Below the pieces are notes generated by a model. That model did not search any database, was not told where the DNA came from, and saw nothing but the letters and a program-made list of their open reading frames with translations. The position numbers and the translations under genes are program-made. Shown piece by piece: positions 25,495 through 29,749 of a stretch of DNA of 40,952 nucleotides. Positions within the stretch are counted from its first letter, which is position 1, and each line of letters starts with the position of its first letter. Source of the DNA: Acidimicrobiales bacterium (GTDB lineage: Bacteria > Actinomycetota > Acidimicrobiia > Acidimicrobiales > AC-9); contig DATBBR010000062.1 in the NCBI GenBank assembly GCA_036270875.1, forward strand, positions 1-40,952, read 5' to 3'.

Positions 25495-26766
25495 TCAGCG
25501 GCGCTCCTCGAGCGGCACGTAGTGGCGCTCGTCCTCGCCCGCGTAGAGCTGACGGGGACGGGCGATCTTGGAGTCCTGGTCCAGGAGCTCCGTCCAGTGG
25601 GACAGCCATCCCGAGGTCCGCGGGATGGCGAACAGCACCGGGAACATGTCGATCGGAAAGCCCATGGCCTGGTAGATCAGCCCCGAGTAGAAGTCGACGT
25701 TGGGATAGAGGCGACGAGACGTGAAGTACTCGTCGGACAGGGCCCGCTCCTCGAGCTTGAGGGCGATGTCGAGCAGCGGGTTCTTGCCCGTGACGTCGAA
25801 GACCTCGTCCGCCGTGCGCTTGATGATGCGAGCCCGGGGGTCGTAGTTCTTGTACACGCGGTGGCCGAAGCCCTGCAGGCGGCCCTCGCCGCGCTTGACG
25901 GCGGCGACGAAGTCGTCGACGTGGTCGATCGAGCCGATCTCGGTGAGCATGCGGATCACGGCCTCGTTGGCTCCACCGTGGCGGGGGCCGTAGAGCGCGG
26001 CGCAGGCGGCGGCGCAGGCCGAGTAGGGATCGGCGTGGGACGAGCCGACGACGCGCATCGCCGTCGTCGAGCAGTTCTGCTCGTGGTCGGCGTGGAGGAT
26101 GAACAACACGTCGAGGGCGTGGGCGAGGGCCGGGTTGGCGTCGAACCGGGGCTCGGCGATCTTCCACATCATGGACAAAAAGTTGGCGGCGAAGCCCAGC
26201 GAGTTGTCGGGGTAGACGAAGGGCATGCCGACGCTGAACCGGTGGGCGGCCGCGGCCAGGGTGGGCATCTTGGCGATGAGGCGGATGATCTGCTTGTCGC
26301 GGGACTCGGGGTCGAAGATGTCCTTGGCGTCGAGGTAGAAGGTCGAAAGGGCGGCGACCGCCGAGACCAGCATGCCCATGGGATGGGCGTCGTAGTGAAA
26401 GCCCTCGAGAAAGCGCTTGCGCACGTTCTCGTGGATGAACGTGTGGTGGGTGACCTCGCGCCGCCAGACGTCGAACTCCGCCGGCGTGGGCAGCTCGCCC
26501 TTCAGGAGGAGGTAGGCGACCTCCAGGTACGAGGAACGCTCGGCCAGCTCGTCGATGGGGTAGCCGCGGTACCTGAGGATGCCGGCCTCGCCGTCGAGGA
26601 ACGTGATGGCGCTCTGGCAGGCCGCCGTGGACGTGAACCCAGGATCGTAGAACCAGATGCCGGGCAGGAGCTTCGACCACGCCGCCGCCGAGATCCCGCC
26701 GTTCTCGATGGGGATCTCGACCGACTGGCCGTTGCGGTTGTCGGTGATGGTGACGCTCTCTGGCAC
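25495..26766 (-). CDS. gltA: Citrate synthase (hexameric type I)
   Basis: A 423-residue protein of normal length for the GltA type. Active-site segments are HADHEQNCSTTAMRVVGSSH, GPRHGGANEAVIRML (catalytic His), GFGHRVYKNYDPRA and NVDFYSGLIY (catalytic Asp). It condenses acetyl-CoA and oxaloacetate to citrate. The GTG at 26766 is preceded by a purine-rich AGAGGGA, and the preceding open frame lacks homology. A second, CBS-fused citrate synthase lies 0.5 kb upstream on the same strand, separated by a GNAT gene. This one looks like the main TCA enzyme. Confidence 0.96.
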   Translation of the reverse strand: MPESVTITDNRNGQSVEIPIENGGISAAAWSKLLPGIWFYDPGFTSTAACQSAITFLDGEAGILRYRGYPIDELAERSSYLEVAYLLLKGELPTPAEFDVWRREVTHHTFIHENVRKRFLEGFHYDAHPMGMLVSAVAALSTFYLDAKDIFDPESRDKQIIRLIAKMPTLAAAAHRFSVGMPFVYPDNSLGFAANFLSMMWKIAEPRFDANPALAHALDVLFILHADHEQNCSTTAMRVVGSSHADPYSACAAACAALYGPRHGGANEAVIRMLTEIGSIDHVDDFVAAVKRGEGRLQGFGHRVYKNYDPRARIIKRTADEVFDVTGKNPLLDIALKLEERALSDEYFTSRRLYPNVDFYSGLIYQAMGFPIDMFPVLFAIPRTSGWLSHWTELLDQDSKIARPRQLYAGEDERHYVPLEERR

Positions 26767-26831: not shown

Positions 26832-27266
26832 TCAGGATCGGTGCCGGTAGACGTTGGTGTCCCGGGGCTCGAACCCCAGGCGGCGGTAGAGGCGGTTGGC
26901 CGCCTCCCGGGAGGGCCGGGACGTGAGATCGACGCTCCTGGCGCCGGCTGCGGCCGCCCGCCGGATGGCCTCCTCGTTGAGCGCCTCGCCGACGCCCCGC
27001 CCTCGGGCGCCGTCGTCGACCACCACGTCCTCGATCCACGCCCGCACCCCTGTCGGGATGCGGAAGACCACCAGGGTGAGCGTTCCCACGATCTCACCCG
27101 CCGGGAGCCGGGCGACGAGCAAGGTGGTCGCCGGAGACTCCACGATCTCGGCCAGCTCGGCCGGGCCCGGAGGCGGCGAGGACGACGACAGCTGGGGCAC
27201 CAGCCCGGCGAAGGCTTCGACCAGCTCGGCGGTGACCTCGGTCGCCGCCTCGACCCGCACCTCCAC
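26832..27266 (-). CDS. GNAT-family N-acetyltransferase
   Basis: A 144-residue single-domain acetyltransferase. The acetyl-CoA loop is VVVDDGARGRGVGEALN (the R/QxxGxG/A signature), preceded by WIEDV and followed by AANRLYRRLGFEPRDTNVYRH. It transfers an acetyl group from acetyl-CoA to an amine, and the substrate is unknown. Its GTG follows the stop of the CBS-citrate synthase gene with no gap (TAGGTG), so the two are surely co-transcribed. Sitting between two acetyl-CoA-consuming citrate synthases is suggestive but not proof of a link. Confidence 0.87.
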   Translation of the reverse strand: MEVRVEAATEVTAELVEAFAGLVPQLSSSSPPPGPAELAEIVESPATTLLVARLPAGEIVGTLTLVVFRIPTGVRAWIEDVVVDDGARGRGVGEALNEEAIRRAAAAGARSVDLTSRPSREAANRLYRRLGFEPRDTNVYRHRS

Positions 27267-28817
27267 CTACTCGGCGTCCGGTACGGGCTGCGGAGGCGGC
27301 GGTCCCGTGTAGTGCGCGCTCGGTCGAATGAGACGGTTGTCGGCGGCCTGCTCGAGGATGTGGGCGCACCAGCCGATCGTGCGGCTGCTGGCGAAGGTCG
27401 GGGTGAACAGCGATCTTGGCAGCCCACACTCGCTCATCACCACGCCGGCGTAGAACTCGACGTTGGTATAGAGCGACCGGCCCGGCTTGAGCTCGGCGAG
27501 GACGTCGACCACCGTCTGCTCGACCTGTCGGGCGAACGCCGCCAGCGGCCCGCCGAGGTCGAGTGCCACCCGCCGCAGCATGAGCGAACGGGGGTCGTCG
27601 GTCTTGTAGACGCGATGGCCGAAGCCCATGATCCGGCCGCCCCGCTGCACCACGTCACGGATGTAGGCGTCGGCGTTCTCGGGCCGGCCGATGGCGTCGA
27701 GCATGTCCAGGGCCCGACTGGGGGCGCCGCCGTGGAGCGGCCCGGAGAGGGCGCCGATGGCACCGACCACAGCGGCGCCCAGGTCGGCGCCGGTCGAGGT
27801 GATGACGCGAGCGGTGAAGGTCGACGAGTTGAACCCGTGGTCGATGGTGGAGATGAGGTACTTCTCGAGGGCCCGGGCCTTGGCCGGATCGGGCACCTCT
27901 CCCGTGAGCATGTAGAGATAGTTGGCCGCGTAGTCGAGCTCAGGATGCGGCTCGATAGGCTGCTGGCCCTCGCTGAGCCGGTAGAGCGCCATCACGAGCG
28001 TCGGGACCAACGCGCACAGCCGCATGGCCTCGTCCTCCAGCTCGGAGGCGCCGAGATCCAAGCTGGCCCGAAAGCCGAGCGAGCTGGCGGACAACGACAC
28101 CGCCGATCGCAGCGCGTCGAGCGCCACGAACCGGTCGCCGGCGGCGGCGATGGCGGGCAGCAGCGGACGCACCGAGTCGGGGATCGTGCGGCTGGCCCGC
28201 ACGCGCCGGCGGAGCTCCTCGCGCTGGCTGGCGGAGGGCAGCTCGCCGAAGAACACGAGGTGCCAGACGTCCTCGAGCGAACGCTTCTCGGCCAGCTCGA
28301 CGGCCGAGTACTGGCGGTAGTGATAGAAGCCCTCGAGGCCGCGGACGTCACCGATATCGGTCTCGGCGACGACGACACCCTCGAGACCCCTGGGGACATC
28401 GGTCACGGCCTGCTCGACGGGCCGGATCTGGGCGATGCGCATGAGGTCGCGCATCGAGAGCACACCGACGAGCTCGGCGTCCTCGACGACAGGGATGTGC
28501 CGGTACCCGTGCTCGGCCAGATTGCGCCAGGCCTCGGTGACCTCGACGTGGGGGGCGACGGTGTCGGGCCGCTCGGTCATCCACTCGGACACCTTGGTCA
28601 CGGACGCGTCGGCGCCCGAGCCGGCGAAGCGGACGAGGTCGCGCTCGGTCAGGATGCCGACCGGGCGTCGATCCTCGACCACGACGACCGATCCCAGCCG
28701 GTGCTCGGACATTCGCTCGGCCGCCTCGGCCACGCTCTCGCGCGGCGACGCCGTGATGGCGGGGCTGCTCATGACATCGGCGACGGTGCGAGTACGGGGT
28801 CCGGTGGCGTCGGTCAT
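27267..28817 (-). CDS. Citrate synthase-like enzyme fused to an N-terminal CBS pair
   Basis: A 516-residue fusion. Residues about 12-130 are two CBS motifs (VADVMSSPAITASP...RLGSVVVVEDRRPVGILTERDL and VSEWMTERPDTV...HIPVVEDAELVGVLSMRDL). From about 150 on it is a short CitA-type citrate or methylcitrate synthase: DHGFNSSTFTARV, ALSGPLHGGAPSRAL and GFGHRVYKTDDPRS. The usual NVDFY catalytic Asp reads NVEFYAG (GAG, Glu). CBS pairs bind adenine nucleotides, so allosteric control by energy state is likely. Citrate versus 2-methylcitrate cannot be told; no prp genes are nearby. The start is fixed by GAGGAGG before ATG 28817. No frameshift joins the parts. Confidence 0.9.
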   Translation of the reverse strand: MTDATGPRTRTVADVMSSPAITASPRESVAEAAERMSEHRLGSVVVVEDRRPVGILTERDLVRFAGSGADASVTKVSEWMTERPDTVAPHVEVTEAWRNLAEHGYRHIPVVEDAELVGVLSMRDLMRIAQIRPVEQAVTDVPRGLEGVVVAETDIGDVRGLEGFYHYRQYSAVELAEKRSLEDVWHLVFFGELPSASQREELRRRVRASRTIPDSVRPLLPAIAAAGDRFVALDALRSAVSLSASSLGFRASLDLGASELEDEAMRLCALVPTLVMALYRLSEGQQPIEPHPELDYAANYLYMLTGEVPDPAKARALEKYLISTIDHGFNSSTFTARVITSTGADLGAAVVGAIGALSGPLHGGAPSRALDMLDAIGRPENADAYIRDVVQRGGRIMGFGHRVYKTDDPRSLMLRRVALDLGGPLAAFARQVEQTVVDVLAELKPGRSLYTNVEFYAGVVMSECGLPRSLFTPTFASSRTIGWCAHILEQAADNRLIRPSAHYTGPPPPQPVPDAE

Positions 28818-28844
28818 GAGCCTCCTCTGCATGCCTCTCCAGCG

Positions 28845-28890: not shown

Positions 28891-28896
28891 TACGGT
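28891..28896 (+). promoter_or_regulatory. -10 box of the PAC2 gene
   Basis: TACGGT ends seven bases before the ATG at 28904, which makes the GTG at 28895 (inside the box) unlikely as a start. Confidence 0.5.
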
Positions 28897-28903
28897 GGAA
28901 CGG

Positions 28904-29749
28904 ATGGACGCGCTGCGCTGGAGCGACCGCCCAAAGCTCCGCCGCCCGGTCCTGGTGGCGGCCTTCGAGGGGTGGAACGACGCCGCCGACGCCGCCACCA
29001 CGGCCGCCCGGTACCTGGCGCGGTCCTGGTCGGCGCGGCCGTTCGCCGACCTGGATCCTGAGGAGTTCTTCGACTTCACCGCCACCCGCCCGCAGGTCCG
29101 CCTCGACGAAGGGACCGTCAGGCACATCGAGTGGCCGGCGAACACCTTCGCCTCCGCTGCCCTGCCGGGCCGGTCGCGCGACGTCGTGTTCCTCCACGGC
29201 ACCGAGCCCCAGCTGCGGTGGAGGACGTTCAGCGAGGTGCTCGCCAACACGGCCAGGGAGCTCGGCGTCGAGCTGGTCGTCACCCTCGGGGCGCTGCTGG
29301 CCGACGTGGCCCACAGCCGGCCCGTTCGGGTGACGGGAAGCGCGGCGGATCCTCAGCTCGTGGCCCGTCTCGGGCTGCGCCGCTCGGGCTACGAGGGCCC
29401 CACGGGGATCGTCGGGGTCCTGCACGACAACCTTTTCCAGGCCGGCGTCCCCTCGGCGTCGCTGTGGGCGACCGTCCCCCACTACGTGGGCCAGACGCCG
29501 TCGCCCAAGGCCACGCTGGCCCTGGTCGAGCGCACCGCGTCCCTGCTGGGCGCGGGCATCGAGCCGGTCGATCTCCAGATCGCCTCCTCGGCCTACGAGC
29601 GACAGGTCACCGAGCTGGTCGAGGCCGACGACGAGGCGGCCGCGTACGTGGCCCAGCTGGAGCAGGCCGACGACGAGGAGGACGAGATGCCCTCCGGCGA
29701 CGCCCTGGCGGCCGAGGTGGAGCGCTACTTGCGCGATCACGGCGACTGA
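28904..29749 (+). CDS. PAC2-family (proteasome assembly chaperone-like) protein
   Basis: About 281 residues. The opening PVLVAAFEGWNDAADAATTA and the central VTLGALLADVAHSRPVRVTGSA and YVGQTPSPKATLALVERTA are typical of actinobacterial PAC2 (DUF75) proteins. The fold resembles the eukaryotic proteasome chaperone PAC2, but the role in bacteria is unsettled. The C-terminus is acidic and helical (EADDEAAAYVAQLEQADDEE). No proteasome, Pup or Mpa gene is in the window. Divergent from the CBS-citrate synthase gene and convergent with the amidase. Confidence 0.86.
   Translation: MDALRWSDRPKLRRPVLVAAFEGWNDAADAATTAARYLARSWSARPFADLDPEEFFDFTATRPQVRLDEGTVRHIEWPANTFASAALPGRSRDVVFLHGTEPQLRWRTFSEVLANTARELGVELVVTLGALLADVAHSRPVRVTGSAADPQLVARLGLRRSGYEGPTGIVGVLHDNLFQAGVPSASLWATVPHYVGQTPSPKATLALVERTASLLGAGIEPVDLQIASSAYERQVTELVEADDEAAAYVAQLEQADDEEDEMPSGDALAAEVERYLRDHGD

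Follow-up and report, generated by a model that had tools for sequence, protein, structure and literature searches.

The window, a stretch of 40,952 nucleotides on contig DATBBR010000062.1 of an uncultured Acidimicrobiales bacterium, carries a gene in which a pair of CBS repeats precedes a citrate synthase (Table 1). The initial annotation had placed both domains in one uninterrupted frame but left the strand unstated; the single frame was confirmed on the minus strand, where Pfam finds both domains, while the plus strand of the same interval is open too but gives a different reading and not the fusion protein. A second in-frame ATG lies upstream at 28832. In the DNA of a sister genome (L004) this ATG is absent, and the AGGAGG and the ATG at 28817 are kept. 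The idea that an assembly or frameshift error joined two genes has practically nothing left to recommend it and is already refuted, as the identical frame occurs in two genomes of the same genus (93-95% identity), which excludes an assembly error, and in dozens of independent assemblies. Chance domain matches are excluded by the Pfam E-values, 3.4e-29 for CBS and 3.9e-113 for Citrate_synt.

On the minus strand the fusion gene is followed by a gene for a GNAT acetyltransferase and then by a type I citrate synthase, which scored above the cut-offs of NF004126 (568.7 bits vs 505) and TIGR01798 (549.2 vs 485.15). The fusion and the type I enzyme account for both of the citrate synthase domains found in the whole genome. 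Of the 79 distinct CBS-bearing loci, four were too short downstream; in 26 of the other 75 a homologue of the GNAT gene immediately follows the CBS-bearing gene. That the GNAT protein acetylates either synthase is speculation.

Table 1. Coordinates of the fusion gene, its parts and neighbours, with examples of a divergent partner gene from other loci
Feature	Position	Strand	Remarks
CBS-CBS-citrate synthase fusion gene, 516 aa	27267..28817	minus	ATG at 28817, stop 27267-27269
AGGAGG, likely ribosome-binding site	28821..28826	minus	3 bases before ATG; kept in L004; read by eye
CBS repeat 1	28626..28784	minus	residues 12-64; best Pfam PF00571 stretch
CBS repeat 2	28431..28595	minus	about residues 75-129; second Pfam stretch, limits from model secondary structure
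GILTERD, CBS 1 ligand signature	28638..28658	minus	residues 54-60
GVLSMRD, CBS 2 ligand signature	28446..28466	minus	residues 118-124
Citrate synthase domain	27318..28388	minus	residues 144-500, PF00285; same span in whole-genome search
Glu454 codon, at place of catalytic Asp	27456..27458	minus	NVEFY, residues 452-456
GNAT acetyltransferase gene	26832..27266	minus	PF00583, 57.8 bits; GTG start on the base after the fusion stop
Main citrate synthase, type I (GltA-like), NVDFY	25495..26766	minus	NF004126 and TIGR01798 over cut-off
PAC2-family gene, divergent neighbour	28895..29749	plus	PF09754, 193.3 bits; 77 bases from fusion start
Divergent HTH-citrate-synthase-like partner, examples	L105:3632-4888, L059:3635-4897, L070:3744-4961	minus	outside the window; in other loci too

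The citrate synthase domain

The enzyme part matches PF00285 over the full profile (positions 1-357 of 357; 378.5 bits vs a curated cut-off of 27), and its DHG, GFGH, DPRS and NVE active-site stretches are invariant among 51 aligned relatives. The original assignment to the CitA type was upheld, citrate synthase 1 of Bacillus subtilis (2c6x) being the best solved match (E 9.9e-90) and the score on NF009005 (PRK12350, CitA-like subfamily) lying above the NCBI cut-off, at 344.1 vs 332. On the same model a Streptomyces relative, as a partial frame, scored 329.8. Several matching NCBIfam models are models of bifunctional 2-methylcitrate/citrate synthases, and the scores on TIGR01800 (2-methylcitrate synthase/citrate synthase II; 329.1 vs 421.3) and NF010636 (297.6 vs 479) stayed under the cut-offs.

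Structure prediction, which had been put forward as a check on the initial annotation, modelled both the CBS pair and the citrate synthase with high confidence. The AlphaFold monomer model has a mean pLDDT of 82.3 and a pTM of 0.65, with the CBS pair (residue blocks 11-120 at pLDDT 81 to 95) and the citrate synthase well defined; residues 129-167, the linker and first enzyme strand, fall under a pLDDT of 50, so the contact between CBS pair and enzyme is not readable from it. Solved citrate synthases fit the second part of the model with Z up to 41.9, the best Foldseek match was B. subtilis CitA at 42% identity, and a fold search with the whole model returned citrate synthases alone among the matches listed.

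A change of the catalytic Asp to Glu had been singled out in the initial annotation. We take the catalytic residues to be the His, His and Asp of the Escherichia coli and pig enzymes; both His are kept and the Asp has become Glu454, so that the acid is retained and the residue is changed, the other citrate synthase of the genome having the usual NVDFY. The letters were read correctly, but the change is not distinctive. Glu was found at this position in 103 of 103 relatives with letters there (106 distinct rows, three with gaps), comprising 61/61 CBS-bearing and 42/42 CBS-less rows, and the solved CitA enzymes of B. subtilis (NVEFY) and Mycobacterium tuberculosis (NVEFW) have it as well. With Glu in both kinds of row alike, the change is ruled out as a novelty. 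Glu thus characterises the CitA-like branch as a whole, with or without a CBS pair, and is uninformative about the fusion.

The CBS pair

PF00571 matches the N-terminal part in two stretches (101.4 bits vs a cut-off of 24), and this part also matches IMP dehydrogenase chains by sequence. Both repeats fit the motif GxxS/TxxD, which we take to be the ligand signature of CBS repeats. Across 77 fused rows the first signature keeps its Asp in 77, its Gly in 76 and its Thr or Ser in 77, and the second its Gly in 77, its Ser or Thr in 77 and its Asp in 73. Nine of ten examined signature positions rank within the top 18 of the 122 CBS columns of these rows (Gly54, Thr57, Glu58, Arg59 and Asp60 of repeat 1; Gly118, Ser121, Arg123 and Asp124 of repeat 2), position 122 being variable at rank 57. 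His107 does not vary at all, and Arg106 and Pro109 hardly vary. The CBS pairs of rows L076 and L104 match that of the window most weakly, at 30% identity. Both parts of the gene are under purifying selection: in a single pair, the window against one same-genus relative, dN/dS came to 0.147 in the CBS part and 0.124 in the enzyme part. The fused gene at L026 (genome G004) has about 50 additional residues separating the CBS pair from the synthase, in a single frame.

Spread and history of the fusion

In a sample of the class 47 of 395 genomes (own included) carried the fusion, made up of 46 with matches spanning both parts (in one of these a contig edge cuts the match) and of G004, in which the CBS pair shares the frame of the synthase but was found as a separate match and pieced together. 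At a threshold of E 1e-90, a further 29 matched over the synthase part only and 319 had no match. Among 59 relatives' genomes, again including the own genome, 22 had a match spanning both parts (G012, with a match starting at residue 32, is counted), and in G004, G048 and G056 the fusion was split or cut. A phylum sample gave 21 of 396 genomes spanning both parts (own included), plus G004. A scan of GTDB contigs, which alone covered fusions in other phyla, found the CBS pair in 44 of the best 80 of 581 confirmed candidate loci; within these 80 the CBS-bearing loci named to class were mostly Acidimicrobiia (20) or 'Actinomycetes' (7), with two from Thermomicrobia, where the fusion is in two Thermomicrobiales records. 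All of these counts refer to samples and best 80 candidates and not to all genomes. The initial annotation knew of no characterised enzyme with this layout. At 47/395 the fusion is not rare in the class, and among the matches listed from open-licence full text no paper describing it was found. In one Thermomicrobiales locus the fused gene is followed by another synthase-like stretch (L052:6956-8232), broken across two frames and perhaps a decayed duplicate.

A quick tree built under LG+G4 from 126 synthase domains, in which long branches were flagged and two long outgroup rows set the root, requires six changes of CBS state at the fewest and places CBS-bearing rows on both sides of a CBS-less Streptomyces branch. 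With the outgroup used, the simplest reading would be a single early fusion followed by about five losses, the apparent ones being L027, L028, the Streptomyces branch, L063/L127 and L131; they are conditionally called losses because the root depends on the two long outgroup rows. A comparison of the 77 fused CBS pairs with 20 free-standing CBS pairs of relatives did not reject one origin of the fused pairs (p-AU 0.712). Separate fusion events, into which a first CBS tree had split the fused rows (3 changes), found no support, the likelihood being higher when these rows were constrained together. It was also higher when they were held together without a group of eight rows (p-AU 0.952), and a second fusion in that group is possible. 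Few columns and long branches limit both the enzyme and the CBS tree. On these trees the fusion is apparently old. Four loci nested among fused relatives, L063, L127, L130 and L131, have 68-74% identity over the synthase part and no CBS motif nearby in any frame, and represent natural CBS-less controls.

A divergent partner gene in relatives

The Streptomyces gene, like that of some Acidimicrobiia, has a divergent partner gene in which a helix-turn-helix (HTH) domain is combined with a citrate-synthase-like one. A domain scan of the partner took in three examples, in one of which HTH_17 was under its cut-off. In 43 frames of the partner the first His and an Asp are kept and the second His nearly always is, whereas the Asn of the first motif is lost (DHGFN has become DHxLA or DHEMA). 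From its sequence the partner looks like a citrate-synthase-derived transcription regulator of the neighbouring gene. An operator-like repeat, TTGAY-N3/4-RTCAAYRTTGAY, lies between the two divergent genes (e.g. L105, L031 and L059). With two mismatches allowed, 54 of the 55 distinct loci that have the partner as defined by the HTH motif carry it, vs 4 of the 72 that do not, the background being 30 of 2000 random stretches. The four exceptions were L025, L027, L028 and L030. A divergent citrate-synthase-like frame that the HTH motif had missed is present in L025, which has the CBS pair, and in L028 and L030, which do not; none was found in L027.

The repeat was unmatched in the window, and the HTH-citrate-synthase partner was absent from both the window and the own genome. 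With neither there, loss of a likely transcription regulator and retention of the CBS pair would be the apparent history of the lineage of the window. A plain swap of the transcriptional partner for the CBS pair was not supported as such, as 17 of the 79 distinct CBS-bearing loci retain the HTH partner by motif and L025 is CBS-bearing with a divergent citrate-synthase-like frame. By the criteria used, the HTH partner and the GNAT gene occurred together in none of 128 distinct loci. It is conceivable, if rather doubtful, that the class gained a nucleotide-switched synthase isozyme once and early, and that in the lineage of the window this direct control, with the GNAT gene alongside, takes the place of the HTH partner and its operator. 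If true, the first step of the Krebs cycle would have been moved from control at the level of the gene to control at the level of the enzyme.

Proposed function and alternatives

Citrate synthase sets the entry of carbon into the Krebs cycle, and bacteria are known to regulate it through substrates, NADH or ATP that act directly on the enzyme. The fusion protein is probably, with moderate confidence, a secondary citrate synthase isozyme of the CitA type that adenine nucleotides control directly through its built-in CBS pair. We infer catalytic activity, nucleotide binding and control of the activity by that binding, and direct adenine-nucleotide control is the best inference from signatures kept family-wide and two confidently modelled domains. 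The enzyme would condense acetyl-CoA and oxaloacetate, with the N-terminal CBS pair (Bateman module) as an in-chain allosteric sensor; an adenine nucleotide bound to the pair would reposition it relative to the enzyme, activity would rise or fall with this movement, and carbon entry would thereby be tied to energy or second-messenger state. CBS pairs bind AMP, ADP, ATP, SAM, NAD and c-di-AMP (excerpts of PMC8822347), and the candidate ligands here would be AMP, ADP, ATP, NAD and c-di-AMP.

What counts against this proposal is that relatives have apparently shed the CBS pair more than once, which suggests that the enzyme can do without it, and that 319 of the 395 class genomes have no relative of the protein at E 1e-90. 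The same losses would suit a CBS pair that is a structural or docking module, setting the oligomeric form or receiving a partner such as the GNAT protein, with small molecules irrelevant to activity. The position of the GNAT gene right behind the CBS-bearing gene in 26 of the 75 loci points the same way, but in 49 of the 75 it is missing from that place, and the positions of the ligand signatures belong to the best conserved of the CBS part, which would be needless in a mere spacer; such a module is unlikely. Nor is the substrate of the enzyme part likely to differ, as it would if propionyl-CoA or another acyl-CoA were used in 2-methylcitrate synthesis or an unknown condensation under the same CBS control. 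The bifunctional NCBIfam models speak for this, whereas TIGR01800 and NF010636 are under their cut-offs, and in the own genome (completeness 97.13%) neither the PrpD family (PF03972) nor the isocitrate lyase family gave a match, and PrpB scored 62.2 bits vs a cut-off of 354.4. A role in 2-methylcitrate or glyoxylate metabolism is less likely for want of these three enzymes above cut-off, and a change of acyl-CoA is on the whole quite improbable.

The ligand to which the sensor responds might instead be c-di-AMP and not AMP, ADP or ATP, in which case carbon entry would follow potassium or turgor state, as with DarB in trans. A diadenylate cyclase domain was matched in the own genome (PF02457, 90.7 bits), which makes c-di-AMP a possible ligand, and DarB, a CBS pair, is an activator of pyruvate carboxylase that c-di-AMP displaces (excerpts of PMC8822347). 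The cyclase is common, however, occurring in 11 of 14 control genomes, and dependence on c-di-AMP is very unlikely. Under the favoured reading, control by adenine nucleotides, a citrate synthase that carries its own dedicated nucleotide sensor would offer a clean, testable example of regulation by energy or second-messenger state, and would do so in environmental actinobacteria about whose physiology little is known. Relatives that do and do not have the CBS pair, up to 74% identical over the synthase part, provide controls from nature, and the fusion is widespread enough in the class to deserve an assay.

Comparison with known systems

Among the matches listed from a search of open-licence full text, with supplementary files outside it, no description of a CBS-citrate synthase fusion was found, and the excerpts of PMC4264754 name the two proteins apart and not as a fusion. 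Both parts and the principle are known; it is the combination that is undescribed in the literature searched. The closest solved enzyme, B. subtilis citrate synthase 1 (CitA, 2c6x), shares NVEFY, but at 363 residues it is without a CBS pair, unlike the fusion protein. CitA of M. tuberculosis (6wgy, 8gll, 8gi7 and related entries) shares the fold and the Glu, but has no CBS pair and a lower score to the fusion protein. IMP dehydrogenase and other Bateman-module enzymes have a CBS pair in cis on the same principle; in IMP dehydrogenase the pair is inserted in the barrel, whereas in the fusion protein it is N-terminal to the synthase.

The Streptomyces enzymes are 59-65% identical over the synthase part and have the same Glu, but they are without the CBS pair and have the divergent HTH_17-citrate-synthase neighbour and the operator-like repeat. 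The Streptomyces divergent pair is presumably, by gene arrangement, sco5831/sco5832 of S. coelicolor, one of the two being the counterpart of the fusion gene. MtrA binds between sco5831 and sco5832 (excerpts of PMC12323332). CBS pairs of the DarB/CbpB type are likewise nucleotide sensors for an enzyme at the entry to the Krebs cycle, DarB controlling pyruvate carboxylase in B. subtilis (excerpts of PMC8822347). They differ in that DarB/CbpB is a stand-alone protein that acts in trans and on a different enzyme, whereas the CBS pair of the fusion protein is a built-in domain.
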